Source: a bacterium
GTDB taxonomy: Bacteria; Babelota; Babeliae; Babelales; JABDEC01
Direction of reading: 5' to 3'
DNA length: 15,781 nt
Assembly: GCA_947486885.1 (NCBI GenBank)
Contig: CANKVQ010000004.1
Coordinates: 1 to 15,781, forward strand
Below, one piece after another: positions 3,585 to 15,781 of the stretch (within the stretch, counting starts at the first letter, position 1; each line of letters begins with the position of its first letter). Position numbers and translations under genes: made by a program. The notes beneath the pieces are model-generated. The model saw nothing but the letters and a program-made list of their open reading frames with translations, was not told the DNA's origin and made no database searches.

Positions 3585-4226
3585 ATGAAATTTTGTGTGA
3601 TTGGCATTGGGCATTATGGCTATGAAGTCGCTACAACTTTATCTGAGCGCGGCTTTGATGTCTTGGCGATCGATCGTGATGAAAATCGAATTGAGAAAAT
3701 TCGTGATCACGTAGCACAATCAATTTGTATTAATATACTAGACAGCAATTCACTTAAAACTATTAATATTGAAAATATGGATGGTGTAATTATTGGCTTC
3801 GGCAAAAACTTTGCCGACACAGCGATAATTACTAGAATTTTAAAAAAAGAGCTCGAACATCCGCTGGTTATTGCCCGCACTAATAGTGACATTAAGTCTG
3901 AAATTTTAAATTTAATTGGCGCTGATAGAATAGTCAGACCAGAATATTATTCCGCATTAAATCTAGCTGATAATCTAAGTTCACCTTTTCCAACTACAAC
4001 TAGATTCAATCATGATTATTCAGTAGTAGAGTTTGCCGCACCGCGCCAATTTATTGCCCAAAGCTTAGCTGAATTAGATCTATTAGGTAATTATAATGTA
4101 CATTGTGTCGCTGTCAGGCGTCATAGTGATATGCTTACGGCTACTCCTGATTTAGTAATTCATGAACAAGATACGTTATTTTTAGCTGGCGAAAATAATA
4201 ACTTAAAAAAATTAGCTAATTTATGA
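3585..4226 (+). CDS. ktrA: Potassium uptake regulator, TrkA/KtrA family (RCK)
   Basis: Cytosolic peripheral subunit that gates the KtrB/TrkH pore in response to bound nucleotides. The 213-residue protein has one RCK unit: a Rossmann TrkA_N domain with GIGHYG (7-12) and an acidic residue D30 ending strand beta2 (LAIDRDE), the conserved ARTNSDI and GADRIVRPEYYS elements near 104-130, then a TrkA_C domain from about 143 to the end. One RCK unit and this length match KtrA, not the duplicated ~458-residue TrkA of E. coli. I chose ATG 3585 over the upstream in-frame TTG 3570 because TTGGAGA at 3574-3580 is a well-spaced ribosome site and MKFCVIGIGHYG begins directly at the Rossmann strand. The stop TGA (4224-4226) abuts the stop of the convergent fic gene. 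No terminator is visible there, so transcripts from the two strands probably overlap. Confidence 0.94.
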   Translation: MKFCVIGIGHYGYEVATTLSERGFDVLAIDRDENRIEKIRDHVAQSICINILDSNSLKTINIENMDGVIIGFGKNFADTAIITRILKKELEHPLVIARTNSDIKSEILNLIGADRIVRPEYYSALNLADNLSSPFPTTTRFNHDYSVVEFAAPRQFIAQSLAELDLLGNYNVHCVAVRRHSDMLTATPDLVIHEQDTLFLAGENNNLKKLANL

Positions 4227-5120
4227 TAACCTGAGATAATCTTTTTGGGTTTCTTGTAACATCTGGGCCACAAAAATCACAAAATCACGATCTGCAATAT
4301 GGGCTTTTTCTAAACTAGAGATATACTCTGCGCGCATAATCGGCGGGATAATTACAATATTATAATCAGCTTGCAGTAAAGCTAAGTTTAGTAATAAGCG
4401 CGCTACTCTGCCATTGCCATCAATGAACGGGTGTATAAACACAAACTCTTTATGCAACTGGGCCGCAAACTCTACCGAATGTAATTTTGGGCGCAAATTA
4501 TTTAAACGCGCTACCATTTCGACCATTGCTGTATCTATTTTATCTGGGCTAGTAGTAGGATATTTAGAACCGGTAATCAATACTTTTACGGTACGATAAA
4601 CTCCAGCTTGTTGTTCGTTAATGCGATAGTAAAATAATTTGTGTAACTGCTTAATTTGTTCAATAGTAATCGTCTGGCTAGCAATCACAGTATACATAAA
4701 ATCATACGCTTCACTTAAACCCTGAGCCTCCAGATGATCCCTTAAGGGTTTGCCGCCGATCGTAATTCCCTCTTCTAAAACAATTTTAGTTTCAGATTCA
4801 GTTAACGTATTACCCTCTAGAGCATTCGAACTATAAGTTACGCTTATGCGATAATATTCTTTAACTTGTTGCTTCAATTCAGGACAACTAGCATGATACT
4901 GGTTAATTTTAACCTGTAGATCATCAATCTTGCTAAAAATATCCCACTCTAATACTAAGTTTTCAGATATTACATCTTGCTCTAAATACAAACTCAATGC
5001 ATCTACTATATTCTTAACTAAATCTTTTTTATTGTTGGCCTGAGTGCAACAACCGGGAAATTCTGCACATTCTGCCCAAAGCATATCGCCATCTTTGTGA
5101 ATTTTAAAATGATATTGCAT
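4221..5120 (-). CDS. Fic/DOC family AMP-transferase with N-terminal HicB-like domain
   Basis: Predicted to transfer AMP (or another nucleotide-linked group) to hydroxyl side chains of target proteins. The Fic core motif is intact: HPFIDGNGRVAR (230-241), with catalytic His230, acidic D234 and both arginines. SNALEG (98-103) fits the [S/T]xxxE[G/N] inhibitory helix, and its position before the core makes this a class II, self-inhibited Fic protein. The flap region GVYRTVKVLITGSKY (173-187) is typical. Residues 1-48 are unusual: MQYHFKIHKDGDMLWAECAE, then FPGCCTQ and an acidic/hydrophobic helix. This is the pattern of the HicB antitoxin fold (strand-strand, PGC, helix). The start is firm because AGGAG lies four bases upstream of ATG 5120. 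The gene lies 51 bases after a small exported-protein gene on the same strand, so co-transcription is possible. No HicA-like gene is visible nearby. The Fic assignment is secure; targets are unknown and the HicB-like call is pattern-based. Confidence 0.93.
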   Translation of the reverse strand: MQYHFKIHKDGDMLWAECAEFPGCCTQANNKKDLVKNIVDALSLYLEQDVISENLVLEWDIFSKIDDLQVKINQYHASCPELKQQVKEYYRISVTYSSNALEGNTLTESETKIVLEEGITIGGKPLRDHLEAQGLSEAYDFMYTVIASQTITIEQIKQLHKLFYYRINEQQAGVYRTVKVLITGSKYPTTSPDKIDTAMVEMVARLNNLRPKLHSVEFAAQLHKEFVFIHPFIDGNGRVARLLLNLALLQADYNIVIIPPIMRAEYISSLEKAHIADRDFVIFVAQMLQETQKDYLRLS

Positions 5121-5889: not shown

Positions 5890-5946
5890 TTCAGTGTTAA
5901 CGTCAGAGTTGTTTTATTTTTTAAAAAATTATCTAGATTGATCACA

Positions 5947-7332
5947 ATGTTAGACCATATTTTAACTGAGCATGAAGGCAAAACACTCGAATTTAAAGCA
6001 AATCTACAAGCACTGCCTAATATTATTAAAACTATTATTGCTTTTGCTAACACTGCTGGCGGCACAATTATTATCGGAATTGAAGATAAGACTAAAAGAA
6101 TTATTGGGATTAAAGATCCTTTAGCTGAAGAAGAACGTTTAGCTAGTGCTATTTGCGATAATATAGAGCCTCAAATTAGACCTGATATCGAGATTAAAAC
6201 TTATCGCGATAAAGAGCTAATAGTTATTAATGTGCCACATGTCACCGGCCCAATGTATCTTAAATCGCTAGGCCTAGAAAAAGGCACCTATGTACGTTTA
6301 GGGTCTACCAATCGGGTAGCAGATTCAGAAACTTTACAAGCTCTCAAAAACTTTGCACTCAATATAGTATTTGATGAGCTACCATCTATTCATAGTAAAG
6401 AGTCTGATTTAGACTGGCAGGTTATTGCGCAACTATTTACCACAGTTAATAAACAAGTCTCTAGTAATCATGCTAATAGCTTAGGGATACTCACTAATCA
6501 TGGCACTAAAGTTGTTCCTAGTTATGGTGGCATGATTTTATTCGGCAAAGATCGTTTAAAATTTTTTCCCGAAGCTAAGATCCGTTGTGTGCGTTTTTTA
6601 GGTGCCGATCGTACTGAGATTCTAGACCAATTAGATATAGATATTTATTTACCATTAGCACTTGAAGAAGCCATTAAATTCATTCGCCGAAATACTACCA
6701 TGCGTGCTGAAATTAAAACTTTAGTCCGTAAAGACATCCCAGAATATCCGCACATAGCTATCAGAGAAGCCCTAACCAATGCTGTATTACATGCTGATTA
6801 TGCTGTTCGTGGTGTTTATATTAGTGTAGCAATCTTTGATGATCGTTTAGAAATTACCAATCCCGGTGGACTACCATTTGGTTTTACCATGAGTAAAGCT
6901 TTAGCTGGCGCCTCTAAAATTCGAAATCGCGTAATTGCTAGAGTTTTTTATCAATTAAAATGGATCGAGCAATGGGGCACAGGAATCCAAAGAATAGTTA
7001 AAGAATGTAAAAAAGCAGGCTTAGCGGCACCAGTTTTTGAAGAATTAAACAACCAGTTTAGAGTTACACTTTATTCAATTAAATTATTGCCAAAATTATC
7101 ATCTAAATCTAAAAAAACTACTAAACAACTAGATGTTGAAAATTGGCAAAAAAAGTTACTTAGTTATTTAAAACAAAAAGAGCAAATTAGTACTAGTGAG
7201 GCGGCTATGTTATGGCAGATCACATCTCGCGCTGCTCGCTTACGCTTAATTAAATTAATTAATACTGGATTAATACGTAAAACAGGCACTTCTTTAAGAG
7301 ACCCATTTAGTTATTATGTTTTGAAAAACTAA
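5947..7332 (+). CDS. AlbA_2 / GHKL-ATPase / winged-helix protein, putative regulator
   Basis: Member of the family often labelled 'RecG-related helicase' or 'ATP-binding protein' (COG2865 type), which is not a helicase. Domains in order over 461 residues: AlbA_2 (Schlafen-type nucleic-acid-binding) domain at about 5-135, with TLEFK (13-17) and AFANTAGGTIIIGIED (32-47); a middle region; a GHKL/HATPase_c_4-like region with the N-box REALTNAVLHADY (273-285), DDRLEITNPGGLP (298-310) and EQWGTGI (341-347); and a C-terminal winged-helix region at about 405-458. These features suggest a nucleic-acid-binding, ATP-responsive transcription factor; direct functions are known for few relatives. ATG 5947 was chosen over TTG 5938 because it places AlbA_2 at the usual distance from the N-terminus; neither has a clear Shine-Dalgarno. 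It is monocistronic, flanked on both sides by A-tract/GCCCCC motifs, and preceded by an inverted repeat that it may itself bind. Confidence 0.88.
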   Translation: MLDHILTEHEGKTLEFKANLQALPNIIKTIIAFANTAGGTIIIGIEDKTKRIIGIKDPLAEEERLASAICDNIEPQIRPDIEIKTYRDKELIVINVPHVTGPMYLKSLGLEKGTYVRLGSTNRVADSETLQALKNFALNIVFDELPSIHSKESDLDWQVIAQLFTTVNKQVSSNHANSLGILTNHGTKVVPSYGGMILFGKDRLKFFPEAKIRCVRFLGADRTEILDQLDIDIYLPLALEEAIKFIRRNTTMRAEIKTLVRKDIPEYPHIAIREALTNAVLHADYAVRGVYISVAIFDDRLEITNPGGLPFGFTMSKALAGASKIRNRVIARVFYQLKWIEQWGTGIQRIVKECKKAGLAAPVFEELNNQFRVTLYSIKLLPKLSSKSKKTTKQLDVENWQKKLLSYLKQKEQISTSEAAMLWQITSRAARLRLIKLINTGLIRKTGTSLRDPFSYYVLKN

Positions 7333-8755: not shown

Positions 8756-11449
8756 TTAAATTAAATCTGCGTGTAATTTCCAAAGTAAATCTAGCGCCTG
8801 ACGTGGCGTCAGATCGTTTAACTCAAGTGATTTTAATTGAGCTATAATTTTAGCTTGATTTAAGCTAGCAGGCTGAAAATCGACAAAAACCCCTTTATTG
8901 ATTTGTGAATTTAGCTCTGCACTTGAGTTATTAGAATTATTTTGATTATTAGTTAAATTATTTAAAATTGCTTGCGCTCGTACAATTACAGACTCTGGTA
9001 AATTAGCTAATTTGGCTACTTCAACACCAAAACTGCTATCTGCTATGCCCGGTATAATTTCATGTAAAAAAATTATGCCCTGATCAGTTTTTTTACATTT
9101 AGCATAATAATTTATAATTCCCGTATGAATTTTGTTTAATTCAGTTAACTCATGATAATGGGTTGCAAATAAACAACGGGCCCCAATAGTCTTATAAATA
9201 TATTCGACTACTGCTTGCGCAATTGCTAAACCGTCAAAAGTACTGGTACCACGACCGACCTCATCTAAAATTACTAAACTATTTTTAGTTGCTAACTGAC
9301 AGATTAAAGCCGTTTCTTCCATTTCTACTAAAAATGTACTTTTACCCTGCGATAAATAATCACCAGCCCCAATTCTAGTAAATATGCGATCTACTAAAGC
9401 TAAATTTGCTGAACTGGCCGGCACAAATGAACCACACTGCGCCATAATGGTAATTAGCGCTACTTGTCGTAAATAAGTCGACTTACCACCCATATTTGGA
9501 CCCGTAATAATATATAGTGCACTTTGATCTGTTAAATTAGTGTGATTGGGCACAAAAGTTTGGGTAACTAAATTTTCGACAATTGGGTGCCGCCCAGAGC
9601 TGATCATGATCTCTCGATTTAGATTAAATTCCGGACAAGTATAGTTATTTTCATGAGCAACTTGCGCAAAACTTAAGATCGCATCTAAATTAGCTAACGC
9701 CTGCGCAGCTTTACGTAGATTAGCTAAGTACAACTCAACTTCAGTTTTTATTTGACCAAAAATTAAATTTTCTAGATCGCCAATGGCGCTCTGCGCACCC
9801 TCGATTTCAGTTTGTAATTCTCGTAATTTAGGCGACACAAATCTTTCGCAATTTACTAAAGTTTGTAATCGCAAATAATCTGCTGGTGCTAAGTGCAAGT
9901 TAGCCTTAGTAAGTTCGATATAATAGCCATGAACAGTATTAAATCTAATCTTGAGCGAATTTAAACCAGTTCGTATTTGCTCTTGCTTTTCTAATTCTAA
10001 AATTTTTTGATTAGCTTGATTAATTAAATCACGTTTATAATCTAACTCTGGATTAAAGCCAGCTTTGATCATCCAGTTATTTTGCTGGTCTTGATTTAAA
10101 GAATTTAGTAATAAATTAATTAATAGATTAAACTCACCCAAATTATACTTGATATAACTCAAGAGACTATTACCAAAATTTTCACGCTCTTGAGAACCTT
10201 GCAATAAATTATTAATTTCTGGAATTACTTGTAAGCCAATTAATAATTGCAAATAATCCCATAGATTAGCTCTGCGTAAACCAATTCTACCAACTATGCG
10301 CTCTAAATCGCCAAGCTTAGTTAATTGGGCCCGTAATTTTATAGTCATACCCAAGTTAACTAATAATAGTTTAATAGCTAATTGACGCTGCTGAATCTGG
10401 GTTAAATTAACTAGTGGTCGAGCTAACCATTTAGCAATCATGCGAGCACCCATAGGTGTTACACTCTGGTCTAGTTGATCAAGTAAGCTGTGCTTACGAG
10501 TTTGATCGTAAGAATTTTTAAATAATTCTAAATTCTGCTGTGTACTATTATCTAAAATTAAAAAATCTTCGGGATTATAAAATTTAACTGATTTAAATTG
10601 TGATAATGCACTATTTTGGCGCTGAGCCAAATAATTATAAAAATTTAAGACCGCTAATTTTAAAGTTTGATTTTCTTGAATTAAGTTCTGAGTATTTTGA
10701 TCGAACTGAGTGTTTAACCAGCTCTCAAAATTTGATTCAGAATTTAGATCTTGTGTTTGAATATTAGAAAATCTTAGGGGCATTGCAGACCCAGAAGTTT
10801 CTTGTGCGCTAACTAAACTGGTAATATAGCCTAACTGCTTGAAGTAATTATTAAATTTTTGGCCCACTGGCGATTTGGGTAATAAAATCTCGTCGGGAAA
10901 AAAGCGACCTAACTCAGACTCAAGTGATTTTAATAAATTATTAGTAATTTTAGTAGCGTACAATTGGGCAGTCAGTAATTCTCCAAATAATAGTGCCCAT
11001 TCTCCGCTATTATTACTGCTATTATTATTACTATTGTTGTCACTTGGGAAAAAAGAGAGTAAATAAGAAGCAGTTCTATCGTCCAACAAATTAAGTTCTG
11101 TTAAAGTACCAGGAGTGAGCACACGTGTCACCCCCCGCTGCACAACTTTACCAACTTGCGCTGGTTCTAACTGGTCACAAACCGCAATCTGGAATCCAGC
11201 TTTAACTAGCTTGGCGAGATAATTGTCTAGTGCATGTACCGGCACGCCACATAATGGTATTGGCTCACCCTGATGCATACCCCGCTTGGTTAAAACAATA
11301 TTTAAAACTTTAGCTGCTTTAATCGCATCATCGAAAAACAGCTCGTAAAAATCACCCACCTGAAATAGTAACAATGCTTCCGGAAATTCAGACCTAATCC
11401 GAAAATATTGTTGCATTAAAGGCGTTGCATCACGAGCTGTTTCATACAT
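8756..11449 (-). CDS. mutS: DNA mismatch repair protein MutS
   Basis: Mismatch-recognition ATPase of methyl-independent or MutL-coupled repair, acting on cytosolic DNA as a dimer. The 897 residues show a complete MutS1: mismatch-binding domain with GDFYELF (32-38), including the Phe-x-Glu wedge F34/E36; lever/core around TPMGARMIAKWLARPL (331-346); clamp region; ATPase domain with Walker A TGPNMGGKST (649-658), GDYLSQGKSTFLVEMEE (696-712), Walker B SLVILDEVGRGTS (724-736) and ATHYHEL (762-768); and a C-terminal tail with LTPRQALDLLWKL (880-892). It is slightly longer than the E. coli protein (853), partly through Asn/Ser-rich linkers at about 137-149 and 831-847. The start follows the stop of the mutS-like gene after only three bases. 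No Shine-Dalgarno is visible, so translation is probably coupled to that gene. No clear terminator follows before 8632. Confidence 0.97.
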   Translation of the reverse strand: MYETARDATPLMQQYFRIRSEFPEALLLFQVGDFYELFFDDAIKAAKVLNIVLTKRGMHQGEPIPLCGVPVHALDNYLAKLVKAGFQIAVCDQLEPAQVGKVVQRGVTRVLTPGTLTELNLLDDRTASYLLSFFPSDNNSNNNSSNNSGEWALLFGELLTAQLYATKITNNLLKSLESELGRFFPDEILLPKSPVGQKFNNYFKQLGYITSLVSAQETSGSAMPLRFSNIQTQDLNSESNFESWLNTQFDQNTQNLIQENQTLKLAVLNFYNYLAQRQNSALSQFKSVKFYNPEDFLILDNSTQQNLELFKNSYDQTRKHSLLDQLDQSVTPMGARMIAKWLARPLVNLTQIQQRQLAIKLLLVNLGMTIKLRAQLTKLGDLERIVGRIGLRRANLWDYLQLLIGLQVIPEINNLLQGSQERENFGNSLLSYIKYNLGEFNLLINLLLNSLNQDQQNNWMIKAGFNPELDYKRDLINQANQKILELEKQEQIRTGLNSLKIRFNTVHGYYIELTKANLHLAPADYLRLQTLVNCERFVSPKLRELQTEIEGAQSAIGDLENLIFGQIKTEVELYLANLRKAAQALANLDAILSFAQVAHENNYTCPEFNLNREIMISSGRHPIVENLVTQTFVPNHTNLTDQSALYIITGPNMGGKSTYLRQVALITIMAQCGSFVPASSANLALVDRIFTRIGAGDYLSQGKSTFLVEMEETALICQLATKNSLVILDEVGRGTSTFDGLAIAQAVVEYIYKTIGARCLFATHYHELTELNKIHTGIINYYAKCKKTDQGIIFLHEIIPGIADSSFGVEVAKLANLPESVIVRAQAILNNLTNNQNNSNNSSAELNSQINKGVFVDFQPASLNQAKIIAQLKSLELNDLTPRQALDLLWKLHADLI
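11006..11040 (-). repeat. Trinucleotide tract coding an Asn/Ser run in MutS
   Basis: A stretch of ATT/ACT/GCT-type triplets (on the coding strand AAT, AGT, AAC, AGC and similar) encodes about twelve consecutive Asn and Ser residues near 137-148 of MutS. This is a linker between the mismatch-binding and connector domains. Length changes by slippage would keep the frame. Confidence 0.6.
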
Positions 11450-11452
11450 ATT

Positions 11453-13423
11453 TTAAATCAAATCTAAATTTGCCTCTGCCAAAATATCTTTAGCCACATT
11501 AGTTATATTAATACCCTGACCAATTACGAACGGATAAACTAGTTTGCCATTAACTTTAGTTGGTGGCAACATGCAATAATTAGCAAAACGTTTAGATTTC
11601 GCAGCTAATTTAGTTAAATCTTGATAATGCGTAGCAAATACAAAATTAGTATTAAGCTTATGACTCAATTTATTGATTAAATCTAATGCACAAGCTTCAC
11701 CTGCATCGGCCGCTGTACCTGTAAATAATTCATCAATGGCACAGAATCCAAATTGATTAGCTACCAAGCCATTAATGGTATTAACCAGCGTTTGCGCTCT
11801 CTCAACTTCAGCTTTAAACAACGATTTGCCGTTAGAAAGATCATCTGTAATATTTAAATAAGTAATCAGCTTAGTAAATGGGGTCAATGCAAATTTAGTT
11901 GCTGCAGCGATTCCAAAAGTTTGTGCCAATAAAATATTTTGGACGAACGCTTTAATTGTGGTTGATTTACCACCAGCATTAGCACCAGTTAAAATAATAT
12001 TTTTATCTGCTACCAAATTATTAATCACGACAGTTTTTGGATCGATCATTATATTCCAATAACCTTCCCCCATTACATTAGGAGCCTGTGCATCTAGATA
12101 GTCCACAAAACAGAATTTTGTTTTATGAGTAGTACCAGAATTATATAATTGGGCTGCTGAAAGATAACTGTCAACATAGCCAACTTGTACAAATATCTTA
12201 GCTAATTGTTCTTTAACTGCCTTAATTTGATTGTAACATTTTAAGACGCGACCTTCGAAATATAAATTAGAAGCACTATCGAAAGTTGCTCGGTGTAAAT
12301 CACTGATTAATTCTTGTGCTTCGCCTGATAAAACCACTGGTTCTAATTCTATACCAAGATCATGCTGGAAGATTTCACGAATTTCTTCCCATGATCTAAT
12401 GGCAGCGCTAACTGCCACCAATTGTGCCTGTAATTCATTGATTACTTTGCGACGGGCAAAATATTGCGAATAAAATATATATTTAGAAAACGTAGCCATT
12501 AAAGACATCAGCGCTTTGCTATTACTATCTTCTTCACGAATTCTGACTTCGTTGTTAAAAGTACTATTTTGAATATTTACTTTATAAGTCTCTAAAAATT
12601 TAGCTCGAATATCAGCTGCGATAGCCGATTGGCCAGCAGGCATTCTAGCTCCAATCCACTCTACTGAAGGCCCCCATATATTTCTAGGGTCAAGATTGTA
12701 TTTCACAAAACTTAAAGCTACAGGACCAAAACCGGTGATGCCTTCTCTAGCGTTTTTTTCCATTACGCGAGGAGCTTCTAATATATGACATGTCACCCAA
12801 TCATAAGTCTGAAAAACCGTATTAATAGTTGCTAACGCCATGGCACTTTTATTAATCGGTTTTAAAAAACCCACTTTATAATATAAATTTGCAACACTAT
12901 CTTTATCATTTAGCCATAATTTTAAAAAAGCTGCTTGATTAAGACTAACAGTTCTTAAAGATTGCTCGATCTTAGCAGCCGTTGCTGGATGATCAACTAA
13001 AGTCTTAACCAGAGCCTGATTTTTTAATAACTGCACACGATCAGTTGTCGGTGTTAATAAGTCATGAATTAAATGTATTTCACCAAAAATTGTTTTGGTA
13101 TAATTTAACTTACTAAATAGATTAGCTGATTGTTCATCACAAACCGTAAATAAATTTAAATCTGACACTAGATTTTCACTAATTATAGTTGAACAACTTG
13201 CCTGATTTAACTGAGAATATTGGTTATTAAAAAATAAATTTAATACGATTTCACGTTTTTTTAAATCACTTAGCTGTTCCGCAGCGGCAATTTTATTTGG
13301 TTGCTCTTGCGTTTCTGCATGCACAAAATTTTTCAAATGCGCTTCCAGCGCTACTGCCACAGGCTTAGCTGCTTGTGCTAAAACCGAGTTGCTAAATAAT
13401 AACCCCAATAATAATTTTTTCAT
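11453..13423 (-). CDS. MutS-family ATPase with predicted Sec signal peptide
   Basis: The 656-residue product ends in a MutS-type ATPase domain: Walker A TGANAGGKST (479-488), TDDLSNGKSLFKAEVERA (526-543) matching the conserved loop after Walker A, Walker B FCAIDELFTGT (560-570) and ATHYQDL (597-603). Upstream, HLIHDLLTPTTDRVQLLKNQ (117-136) resembles the start of the MutS core/lever domain. No GDFYELF-type mismatch-binding motif or connector is seen; the protein begins MKKLLLGLLFSNSVLAQAA, a textbook signal peptide (cleavage near 17-19). An in-frame ATG at 13459 would add twelve residues, but a perfect TATAAT (13445-13450) lies inside that extension, so ATG 13423 is preferred. Ribosome sites are ambiguous (AGGGA 11 bases, AGGGG one base upstream). 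It is directly upstream of mutS in the same transcription unit. Family membership is secure; export is predicted, and the role is unknown. Substitution of MGGKS by AGGKS leaves the P-loop intact. Confidence 0.9.
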   Translation of the reverse strand: MKKLLLGLLFSNSVLAQAAKPVAVALEAHLKNFVHAETQEQPNKIAAAEQLSDLKKREIVLNLFFNNQYSQLNQASCSTIISENLVSDLNLFTVCDEQSANLFSKLNYTKTIFGEIHLIHDLLTPTTDRVQLLKNQALVKTLVDHPATAAKIEQSLRTVSLNQAAFLKLWLNDKDSVANLYYKVGFLKPINKSAMALATINTVFQTYDWVTCHILEAPRVMEKNAREGITGFGPVALSFVKYNLDPRNIWGPSVEWIGARMPAGQSAIAADIRAKFLETYKVNIQNSTFNNEVRIREEDSNSKALMSLMATFSKYIFYSQYFARRKVINELQAQLVAVSAAIRSWEEIREIFQHDLGIELEPVVLSGEAQELISDLHRATFDSASNLYFEGRVLKCYNQIKAVKEQLAKIFVQVGYVDSYLSAAQLYNSGTTHKTKFCFVDYLDAQAPNVMGEGYWNIMIDPKTVVINNLVADKNIILTGANAGGKSTTIKAFVQNILLAQTFGIAAATKFALTPFTKLITYLNITDDLSNGKSLFKAEVERAQTLVNTINGLVANQFGFCAIDELFTGTAADAGEACALDLINKLSHKLNTNFVFATHYQDLTKLAAKSKRFANYCMLPPTKVNGKLVYPFVIGQGINITNVAKDILAEANLDLI

Positions 13424-13444
13424 GCCCCTAAAAATCCCTAAAAT

Positions 13445-13474
13445 ATTATATTCTTCCATTAATTTCTAACGTAA
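13445..13474 (-). promoter_or_regulatory. Probable promoter of the mutS-like/mutS unit
   Basis: On the minus strand a perfect -10 box TATAAT occupies 13450-13445; the best -35 (TTACGT, 13474-13469, 18-base spacer) is weak. It lies just past the terminator of the preceding gene, where a promoter is needed. Transcription would start near 13438, giving a leader of only about 15 bases before ATG 13423 and excluding the upstream ATG 13459. Confidence 0.5.
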
Positions 13475-13485
13475 CTAGTTTAAAC

Positions 13486-13516
13486 AAAAGCCCGCAAATG
13501 TCTACGTTTTGCGGGC
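13486..13516 (-). terminator. Strong rho-independent terminator
   Basis: GCCCGCAAA (13490-13498) and TTTGCGGGC (13508-13516) form a nine-base perfect stem with a nine-base loop. On the minus strand it is followed by TTTTGTTT. It begins 39 bases after the stop of the 13555-14535 gene and ends that transcript before the mutS-like gene. Confidence 0.85.
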
Positions 13517-13554: not shown

Positions 13555-14535
13555 TTAAACTTTAGTTGCAAACTCTTTTAATTGCCTATTTAGCGTTACA
13601 TGAAGTTTATAAATTTTAGCACCTAAAAGCTCTTGGTCGGCTTGACTCTTTAAGTTGCCTAAAGCCTCTAAGACTGTCCTTAAAACATCATTACAATCAG
13701 CCTGTATTTTTACAGCTATAGCTCTAAGTGTTTTGAGTTTTTGCCCAATGTCTTTAGCCTGATTGGTTTCTATGCCAGTTGCCAAGTCATTTTGAGCATA
13801 TTCTAGATAACTTAAGACAGTTATCATAGCAGCTCTTAGATTAACTAATTTAAGTCGAATTTCAGGCTTCAAATCAATCACCACGCCATTATCAATTTGA
13901 TGATCGCCAAGCTCTTGCATAAAATCTTTAAGACTAGTCAGTTGATCATGAAAACCTGTTTGATATAGATAATAATCTAAATCACGAGTGCTCATAAATT
14001 TAAACGCCGGCTTAACAGTTTTATTGATCACCGGTAAAATAATCGGCTCTGCCACCACCCCAACTACCGCTAACCCAGCTGTGCCAATTGCACCAGTTTT
14101 AAGCTGTGATAAAAAAGTTTTGCTAGCAGTATCTCGCTGATTAATAGCAGCTTGATTAGCAGTATAACTGTGCCACATAGTAGCTACTTTTTCATGATCT
14201 TGCTTGGCATTAAACTCAATAGTCGAGCTGCTATCTTTTTGCCACCAAGCTTTAAGCGACTCACGCTTATTATAGATTAAACAACCAGCTGAGATAATTG
14301 CTGCTGTATAAATCCCTGTTTTTAGCCACCAGTCACGATTAATTTCACCGGCTACTAGAACGCTTTGCGCTTGAACTTCAGCACTGGTAATAGCATGAAT
14401 TATTTGAGATTCAGATGGATTTAGCGCTGGACTAAAATCTGGGATAGCGCTAGTTTGCACCTGTTGCGCTACGGTATTAAAAAATATTAGATTTAAAAAA
14501 GCTAGTTTTAAAATTCTCGCAATGAAAAATTTCAT
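13555..14535 (-). CDS. Exported/membrane-associated protein of unknown function
   Basis: The 326-residue protein starts MKFFIARILKLAFLNLIFFN followed by TVAQ, a Sec signal peptide with likely cleavage near 24. Two further hydrophobic segments follow: about 70-88 (WLKTGIYTAAIISAGCLIY) and about 148-170 (GAIGTAGLAVVGVVAEPIIL and following). Between them is a polar loop with WWQKDSSS. The C-terminal half (about 185-326) is polar and predicted helical, with heptad-like leucines (for example 225-250 and 265-320), suggesting a coiled-coil or helical bundle. ATG 14535 is chosen over an in-frame GTG at 14589 because it puts the signal peptide at the N-terminus. The ribosome site is weak; a CATAAT -10-like box at 14552-14557 would leave a very short leader. 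It ends at a strong terminator. I recognise no family or catalytic motif. Confidence 0.78.
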   Translation of the reverse strand: MKFFIARILKLAFLNLIFFNTVAQQVQTSAIPDFSPALNPSESQIIHAITSAEVQAQSVLVAGEINRDWWLKTGIYTAAIISAGCLIYNKRESLKAWWQKDSSSTIEFNAKQDHEKVATMWHSYTANQAAINQRDTASKTFLSQLKTGAIGTAGLAVVGVVAEPIILPVINKTVKPAFKFMSTRDLDYYLYQTGFHDQLTSLKDFMQELGDHQIDNGVVIDLKPEIRLKLVNLRAAMITVLSYLEYAQNDLATGIETNQAKDIGQKLKTLRAIAVKIQADCNDVLRTVLEALGNLKSQADQELLGAKIYKLHVTLNRQLKEFATKV

Positions 14536-14603
14536 AAAAATAACATCCAGAATTATGGCCCTAACAGGCAAGTTACAATTTAAGATCACTCTTTGACCCT
14601 ATC

Positions 14604-14746: not shown

Positions 14747-15781
14747 TTAAATATATTTACTAGGCTCAAACTTCAATAATTTAAATTTAGCAATTTGCCC
14801 AAAAAAATTACCCTGATTATCCAATGTCCGGACTACTTGATTGCTTTTAATACAGTTTAGTAAATCAACATAACTATTAATCCCATAGAAAATTTTATTA
14901 ATAGGAATCTCGTGTAAACAACCAAAGCCTTGTCGATAACCCCGAGCTTCTACCATTAAGCCCCGCGCTACATCGCTAACTACCATTATATGTCCCACAT
15001 GCCAGATAAAATCACCGGCTTCTAATTGATTAATATCGCGAATTTCAATTAAATTACGTTCAATCGTAGCTGAATTTTTATAAAAATATGGAATCCCAAC
15101 AATCTGAGCCGCCCTAGAGATCAGGCAAGAACAGTCTAAGCCCGCACTTGGTTCCTGGATATAGTTTTCGCGAATATAGCCCGGCTGCCCTAAGATATTT
15201 TGTGAATTTTTAATAAGACACTGACCAGTAGCACAAGTATTAATTAAACTAGCACCAGAATAGACATATGGCACAAAACCAGTATTAAACTGTGTCCAAC
15301 TTTTAATTAAATTCACAAAATCTTGTTTTTGCGCTACAAAATTTTTAGGTGTGTGAACAATATAACTACCTGCTGGCAAAACAATCTGAGTTAATTTTAA
15401 AATATTATTACTGCTATTTTTCAGCACCCAAACAGGCAAACCCAAATTTTTGCTAGTGCGCGCATAATCACTTTCGAAATCAACAATCTTAAAGCTAGTG
15501 CCTACAGAATAGCTGCGTTGAGTTACAGGATCTATCACAGGCGTAATTAGCGTGACTTTATTAGTATCATCAATAGCTAAACTTGGTGTTTTAAAATTAT
15601 TTTTAAAATTAATGGGTACAGGCAACTTACTTAAATTTATACCTAAATCAGTTAAATCTTTAACTGGGATTAAATTAGTTTTTAGAGTCCAAAAGCTATT
15701 GCGATATTCTTGACCTAAACTCTCTAAGTTAACTATAAGATTATTGTCGGCTGAAATATTTTGTAAATTATTATTTTTATT
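14747..15781 (-). CDS. NlpC/P60 family cell-wall peptidase, 5' end outside window
   Basis: The frame runs off the right edge, leaving 344 visible residues with no preferred start inside the window (a TTG at 15625 is not needed). NlpC/P60 enzymes cut peptidoglycan stem peptides, typically the gamma-D-Glu to diamino-acid bond, in the periplasm. Visible residues: catalytic-site motif GLDCSCLISRA, with nucleophile Cys at visible residue 217 (codon 15131-15133); a downstream AGDFIWHVGHIMVVSD with His261; and VEARGYRQG, where Glu278 may fill the third polar position. The family usually reads DCSG, here DCSC. The upstream part contains FWTLK, LPVWVLKN and PAGSYIVHTPKNF, resembling the stabilising and SH3-like domains that precede NlpC/P60 in YkfC-type gamma-D-glutamyl-diamino-acid peptidases; that three-domain reading is inference. 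The signal peptide, if any, lies beyond the edge. Asn/Lys-rich residues mark the edge. Confidence 0.88.
   Translation of the reverse strand, partial: NKNNNLQNISADNNLIVNLESLGQEYRNSFWTLKTNLIPVKDLTDLGINLSKLPVPINFKNNFKTPSLAIDDTNKVTLITPVIDPVTQRSYSVGTSFKIVDFESDYARTSKNLGLPVWVLKNSSNNILKLTQIVLPAGSYIVHTPKNFVAQKQDFVNLIKSWTQFNTGFVPYVYSGASLINTCATGQCLIKNSQNILGQPGYIRENYIQEPSAGLDCSCLISRAAQIVGIPYFYKNSATIERNLIEIRDINQLEAGDFIWHVGHIMVVSDVARGLMVEARGYRQGFGCLHEIPINKIFYGINSYVDLLNCIKSNQVVRTLDNQGNFFGQIAKFKLLKFEPSKYI

Follow-up and report, generated by a model that had tools for sequence, protein, structure and literature searches.

A family of MutS8-type ATPases with predicted signal peptides in Dependentiae and other mostly intracellular bacteria

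The DNA stretch analysed here (the window) comprises the 15,781 nucleotides at positions 1 to 15,781 of contig CANKVQ010000004.1 (assembly GCA_947486885.1), from a bacterium of the Babelales. Its minus strand carries at 11453..13459 a gene for a MutS-like ATPase, recognised by open reading frame (ORF) calling, Pfam matches to MutS_V and MutS_III and the homologues P0001-P0009, whose product has 668 residues counted from the ATG at 13459. The sequences of this protein and of its relatives suggest that it belongs to a MutS8-type family that is very likely exported via Sec and that, on balance, probably acts on the host side as a host-interaction factor and not in mismatch repair. Signal-bearing MutS8 proteins have already been published for Cardinium (in 2017); interest is added here by the spread of such a family through most genomes of Dependentiae.

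The original prediction had started the protein at the in-frame ATG at 13423, which gives 656 residues (MKKLLLGLLFSNSVLAQAA), and had described a full MutS-type ATPase with a recognisable core and without a mismatch-binding domain. Domain searches agreed with this description. Pfam located MutS_V (domain V ATPase, PF00488, E=1.9e-20) at residues 476-634, corresponding to 11522..11998, and the N-terminal part of the core (domain III) at residues 88-160 (12944..13162), where the MutS_III match (E=1.9e-6, 28.8 bits) fell under the cut-off of 34.1 bits. No Pfam match to MutS_I, MutS_II or MutS_IV was detected up to E=1. In addition, profile-profile alignment placed residues 80-647 onto MutS 298-811 (probability 99.9), starting past domain I and skipping the clamp. 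Thus, domains I and IV, which canonical MutS and MSH proteins have and which characterise mismatch-repair MutS, were found neither by Pfam nor by profile alignment, and this family also differs from canonical MutS/MSH in having a signal peptide. Scores against NCBIfam mutS1 (76.0 bits, cut-off 641.7), PRK05399 (86.7 bits, cut-off 480) and NCBIfam mutS2 (53.8 bits, cut-off 400) were all far below the respective cut-offs. A helical insert at residues ~165-299 (12527..12931), between the two halves of the core, was mostly unaligned to MutS and poorly conserved in its second half; in the predicted structure, blocks within residues 221-300 had mean predicted local distance difference test (pLDDT) values of 38-62, with 246-257 and 279-299 below 50. 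A hydrophobic 18-mer upstream of the ATPase (mean hydropathy of at least 1.9) occurred in 21 of 86 family rows, in 1 of 31 canonical MutS and in all 14 membrane-anchored MutS, and none was found in the window protein even at a cut of 1.5; as to a membrane hairpin in the family insert, this is suggestive only. A match to PADLOC mad8 (E=2.6e-5) was set aside, as it spans the Walker A region alone (residues 471-501).

The complete residue set of an ABC/MutS ATPase can be recognised in the window protein: Walker A TGANAGGKST (residues 479-488, 11960..11989), the signature serine S534 (11822..11824), Walker B D564-E565 (11729..11734) and the switch histidine H599 of the TH motif (11627..11629), all on the minus strand. 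Across 85 aligned members (L106_1, which starts in masked bases, was excluded), G480, G485, K486, the signature serine and the Walker B aspartate were invariant, N482 was kept in 83 and the Walker B glutamate in 84, and the switch position was histidine in 81 and glutamine in four. Matches to TGxNxxGK[ST]T, a strict form of the Walker A motif, were present in 70 of 86 family ORFs. The ratio of nonsynonymous to synonymous substitution rates ranged from 0.10 to 0.30 in the 19 rows with a value, taken from the 25 closest of 54 pairs; these rows represent 12 distinct pairs, which include paralogues but not the window gene. Since the ATPase is kept in a protein predicted to be exported, ATP should be met after export, and the near invariance of its residues makes an ATP-containing place outside the cell the most plausible site of action, as originally proposed. 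Some members lie in tandem, with three or four family genes in a row, as in L095 (G078:C12), L090 (G074:C12) and L106 (G034:C20). L095_4 has glycine instead of the Walker B glutamate, and both L095_2 and L095_4 have glutamine at the switch histidine, which hints at inactive partners.

The signal peptide was studied with two in-house measures, each with controls. One is a signal-peptide rule that requires positive charge in the n-region, a hydrophobic stretch free of charges and small residues around the cleavage site (cut 22), applied to 5'-complete, non-identical ORFs scoring above 300 bits after removing duplicates and ORFs cut by the end of a locus. The other is a hydropathy measure, namely an uncharged stretch of nine residues with a mean hydropathy of at least 2.0 within the first 45 residues. 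Among the 86 complete non-redundant family ORFs, 66 passed the rule, whereas canonical MutS never did (0 of 31) and 60-mers taken at random from within family proteins did so in 77 of 1720 cases. Hydropathy was passed by 79 of the 86, by none of the 31 canonical MutS and by 14% of random internal 45-mers from family proteins. Three weaker family members, counted apart, all passed the signal-peptide rule. The claimed N-terminal signal peptide was thus borne out. In the window protein, n-, h- and c-regions were recognised by the in-house rule with a score of 27.4, and the predicted Sec signal peptide, MKKLLLGLLFSNSVLAQA, lies at 13370..13423 (minus strand), with cleavage after residue 16 or 18. 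With a hydropathy of 1.90 the same protein was one of the seven misses of the second measure, another being L106_1. A wrong start codon as the origin of the signal was ruled out because, throughout the family, the signal recurs on the N-terminal side of the conserved core. Finally, the mean charge around the hydrophobic stretch was +2.00 before and -0.25 after in the family (83 rows), and +0.29 before and +2.50 after in membrane-anchored MutS (14 rows); by the positive-inside rule, the family would face out and the anchored group in. Family-wide signals, export-type charge flanks and the mostly intracellular lineages in which the family occurs argue well for the export of a MutS-like ATPase, as had been predicted.

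Directly behind the signal peptide, a conserved YLKSF-like helix motif was observed in the window protein (residues ~31-38) and in family members. A loose pattern around [YN][LIM][KR]S[FL], picked by eye from the same sequences in which it was counted, followed the signal in 54 of the 100 rows of the exported type (a total in which five from Bacteroidota count twice), compared with 6.7% of shuffles. Among other signal-like ORFs only 3 of 64 had it, so that it looks like a feature of the family and not like a general sorting signal.

GTDB genomes were scanned with alignment A1 (nine rows); this search, which relies on a single ten-residue pattern and will miss relatives, yielded 34 loci. Loci L003-L019 came from Babeliales/TM6, Amoebophilaceae, Cardinium and one Oceanospirillales bacterium, some records being titled only bacterium or Bacteroidetes. 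Genome-by-genome surveys were then made of 101 Dependentiae genomes and of a 241-genome sample of the order of the Amoebophilus genome G104. At a membership cut of E<1e-40, set after the scores were seen, a family match was present in 85 of the 101 Dependentiae genomes, or in 84 if the borderline G008 is left out (7.8e-43, near the best canonical MutS at 141 bits; the next, G086, was at 8.2e-52). Genomes G055 and G056 held at least seven strong matches each. In the Amoebophilus order, a strong member was detected in 16 of 241 genomes, all of 0.7-2.7 Mb, the weakest one kept being that of G289 (2.4e-94); 11 hits between 3.3e-41 and 7.0e-50, from genomes of 4.0-9.1 Mb, were excluded as membrane-anchored MutS by their matched range. 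Of the Bacteroidota members, 13 of 15 look exported by hydropathy, and the remaining two score 1.52 and 1.54. The signal is a trait of the family, which was thus found in Dependentiae, Amoebophilaceae, Cardinium and one Oceanospirillales genome. In this last genome (Hp36, L018 4855-8917; 5.5 Mb), two tandem divergent members with signal-like starts were observed, which is odd in a mostly intracellular distribution.

MutS8 of giant viruses was reportedly treated by Ogata et al. in 2011. Domains III and V without domain I, which we take to be the defining set of MutS8, are what Pfam indicates in the window protein, MutS_III being below its cut-off. The assignment to MutS8 rests indirectly on kinship through L017 of Cardinium sp. 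TP, a family member at 725 bits that itself belongs to the 25-row profile, the reference being the literature assignment of the Cardinium homologues and not a MutS8 sequence. According to the papers cited here, MutS8 occurs in giant viruses (PMC3749498, PMC6459981), where it is described as mismatch repair (PMC3749498), and the Cardinium proteins CAHE_0017 and CAHE_0267 belong to the MutS8 subfamily, carry predicted signal peptides and are candidate secreted, putative DNA-interacting proteins proposed for host interaction (Mann et al., 2017, PMC5698495). Common to them and to the family described here are the MutS domain, the predicted signal and an intracellular bacterium as the source, and L017 falls in the same family. 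However, Cardinium is a member of the Bacteroidota and has two such genes, compared with at least seven strong matches in some Dependentiae genomes. Dependentiae are not treated in the available portions of that paper (PMC5698495), and no report of an exported MutS-like family in this phylum was found in the accessible text of the open-licence literature.

Relatives without a signal were also identified. A search with P0007 gave 385 metagenomic proteins, and the statements that follow refer to the best 120 of them (P0007, P0008 and P0072-P0189). These P0007-type proteins share domains III-N and V with the exported family and group with it, but a hydrophobic N-terminus was seen in none of the 120. 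At least one hydrophobic 18-mer before the ATPase was present in all 120, compared with 57 of 85 family rows, and the motif pattern behind the signal in 11. They are probably the MutS8 of giant viruses; if viral, the absence of a signal would be expected because the protein would be made directly in the host cytosol. No relative was found when viral_contigs was scanned with P0007, with A3 or with the window protein, and the scan with A1 gave one Firmicutes-type locus, L037. Trees were built with a random subset of the rows from Dependentiae, together with 12 (quick tree) and then 10 (careful tree) of the 120 P0007-type proteins. The careful tree held 73 of 90 rows, seven having been removed because of their length or divergence and ten as near-duplicates. 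In these unconstrained trees the P0007-type formed one clade nested among exported rows, with a support of 95 by the Shimodaira-Hasegawa-like approximate likelihood ratio test in the quick tree and of 97/97 in the careful tree, there beside two G056 genes. Neither a topology that unites all signal-bearing rows of Dependentiae and Bacteroidota in one clade (p 0.503) nor one that so unites all Dependentiae (p 0.346) was rejected by approximately unbiased tests. MutS2, from which the window protein already differs by its NCBIfam score, was a separate clade in the quick tree.

In the mechanism that we propose, Sec would recognise the cleavable N-terminal signal, a step with strong sequence support. 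The mature protein, which by profiles and predicted fold combines the core and levers of MutS with an ABC-type ATPase and lacks the mismatch-binding and clamp domains, would then leave the inner membrane. In Dependentiae the outer membrane might be crossed by a type II secretion system; secretin matches were detected in 96 of 101 genomes, that of the window included, and secretins serve type IV pili too. Once it had reached the host, with its ample ATP, the protein could work as an ATP-switched lever or clamp, presumably as a dimer as in MutS. Host proteins or membranes would be at least as likely to be gripped as DNA, because the known DNA-gripping parts are absent, and mismatch repair is an unlikely role. 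A type II system has been proposed as the export route of B. massiliensis, in a paper that also describes AAA-ATPase/Ulp1 proteins whose signals are somewhat atypical (PMC4378268).

Two other explanations concern the N-terminus and the origin of the gene. The N-terminus could be an uncleaved anchor, or inert, leaving the ATPase in the cytoplasm as in the membrane-anchored MutS of Firmicutes. Anchored MutS proteins occur in Firmicutes and in Bacteroidota (L020-L033, P0060), and like the family they combine MutS_V with a hydrophobic N-terminus. All 14 complete Firmicutes-type ORFs among L020-L033 and L037 passed the hydropathy measure and five of them also the signal-peptide rule, so that the charge test alone separates them from the family. 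However, in the Firmicutes rows the charges on either side of the stretch point to an ATPase in the cytoplasm, opposite to the family; the 66 family ORFs that pass the rule have small residues at the cleavage positions; and the anchored group forms a separate clade in the careful tree (97/91). We consider such an anchor very improbable. The original prediction had also taken the pairing with canonical mutS as a hint of duplication. Indeed, a canonical mutS (8756..11449, minus strand; MutS_I, III, IV and V above the Pfam cut-off, II sub-threshold, and identified by NCBIfam as well) lies 3 bases downstream, and a recent duplicate of it might have gained a signal by chance. This adjacency was specific to the window, a family ORF standing beside canonical mutS in 1 of 30 loci, the window's own (the 30 are the best-matching of 94 genomes with canonical mutS, with flanks of ~1.5 kb, some cut by contig ends). 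Besides, the nearest relatives of the window protein are other exported-type members (P0002, 61%, and P0003, 47%), and in the careful tree canonical MutS is a separate clade (support 100/100), the exported-type family falling outside the Dependentiae mutS clade. In the same-genus genome G039 (75% complete) the order of genes is the same, and mutS follows the upstream gene after 18 bp without a MutS8-type gene in between; this is compatible with a gain in the window lineage as well as with a loss in G039, and a copy may lie in the missing part of G039. Tree, synteny and adjacency thus led us to reject local duplication, which we regard as scarcely credible.

The remaining explanations accept export and differ in the place or target of action. 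The original prediction assumed that the periplasm lacks ATP, but this need not hold here: nucleotide (ATP/ADP) transporter matches were detected in 98 of 101 Dependentiae genomes and in none of 14 control genomes, and imported host ATP must presumably cross the periplasm. The protein could accordingly be a periplasmic or envelope ATPase fed by host ATP on its way to the translocases, and a signal peptide alone accounts for a periplasmic location and no further. In the Amoebophilus-order sample, 20 of 241 genomes had a strong translocase match (E<1e-40; 13 further matches with E from 4e-11 to 7e-4, in genomes of at least 3.3 Mb, were excluded), among them all 16 with the family. Against this explanation, Hp36 has two family members and no transporter match, the incomplete genomes G077, G078 and G082 (68-82% complete) likewise have the family without a transporter match, and the probably viral relatives without a signal, if viral, would have no periplasm to work in. 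A periplasmic role seems to us unlikely, if worth keeping in mind. Alternatively, a secreted MutS could bind DNA of the host, of its organelles or of competing viruses, given that the MutS fold and lever region are present, that the Cardinium proteins have been called DNA-interacting and that viral MutS8 has been labelled as mismatch repair. However, domains I and IV are the known DNA contacts of MutS, and neither the Pfam search nor the profile alignment recovers them, which makes a DNA target quite improbable.

The host-side reading itself, which we prefer, has several observations against it, in addition to the anchored proteins that pass the signal-peptide rule, the genomes with the family and no transporter match, and the limited reach of a signal peptide. 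Matches in the remaining 16 of the 101 Dependentiae genomes (1e-28 to 1e-35) are only at the level of canonical MutS, and 5 of the 16 Amoebophilus-order genomes (G101-G105) were known beforehand from the GTDB family search. Four transporter-bearing genomes of that order lack the family, and the link between transporter and family there may reflect shared ancestry of one clade, these genomes being close kin and not independent. No secretin match was found in G008, G017, G073, G078 and G087, although each of these five has a family match at the membership cut and two of them, G017 and G087, are 96-97% complete; this and the use of secretins by pili mean that the export route is supported weakly. 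In the literature, the A. asiaticus homologues are reported without a signal (PMC5698495) and signal-bearing proteins are described as abundant (PMC4378268, PMC6561590). In Chromulinavorax, 44% of proteins have predicted signals (PMC6561590), so that a signal is a poor indicator of an effector.

As a tentative and rather doubtful extension, MutS8 could be a host-side ATPase of unrelated cell invaders, signal-bearing in intracellular bacteria of several phyla and signal-free in giant viruses. If so, one could tell from the signal, or from its lack, where a member acts, and viral MutS8 would be mislabelled as mismatch repair. MutS proteins are usually presented as DNA clamps of the cytoplasm. 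An exported family that is so widespread and keeps its ATPase conserved would give Dependentiae, of which few members have been cultured, a host-interaction machine of a new class; it would also question the repair function assigned to giant-virus MutS8. The contrast with signal-free, probably viral relatives adds to this interest. A testable rule is suggested, by which exported ATPases are expected where ATP occurs beyond the bacterial inner membrane.

Upstream of the MutS8-type gene, a terminator-like hairpin with a T-rich tail (13490..13516, minus strand) had a fold z of -2.88, with 1 of 200 shuffles as stable; a pattern scan with a loop limit of 8 did not pick it up. Because of this hairpin, the gene may have its own transcript. 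The next gene upstream (13555..14589, minus strand), an ORF with a signal-peptide-like start by eye, has a counterpart kept in the same-genus genome (L138:6218-7303). The mutS of that genome (L138:7322-10318) contains a repetitive NNSPD-rich stretch near its C-terminus, and the window mutS has short N/S-rich runs instead.

Elsewhere in the window, 4221-5120 (minus strand) encodes a Fic/DOC-domain protein (Pfam E=4e-19, residues 151-248), and its first 50 residues, without a Pfam match, resemble by eye what we take to be a HicB-like antitoxin. The product of 5938-7332 (plus strand) combines a Schlafen AlbA_2 domain with a RecG-type C-terminal domain and is likely a DNA-binding regulator. Finally, 14747-15781 (minus strand) and its relative L138:4724-6166, which has a signal-peptide-like start, gave no Pfam match, and by eye they show a Cys/His pattern that is presumably NlpC/P60-like.
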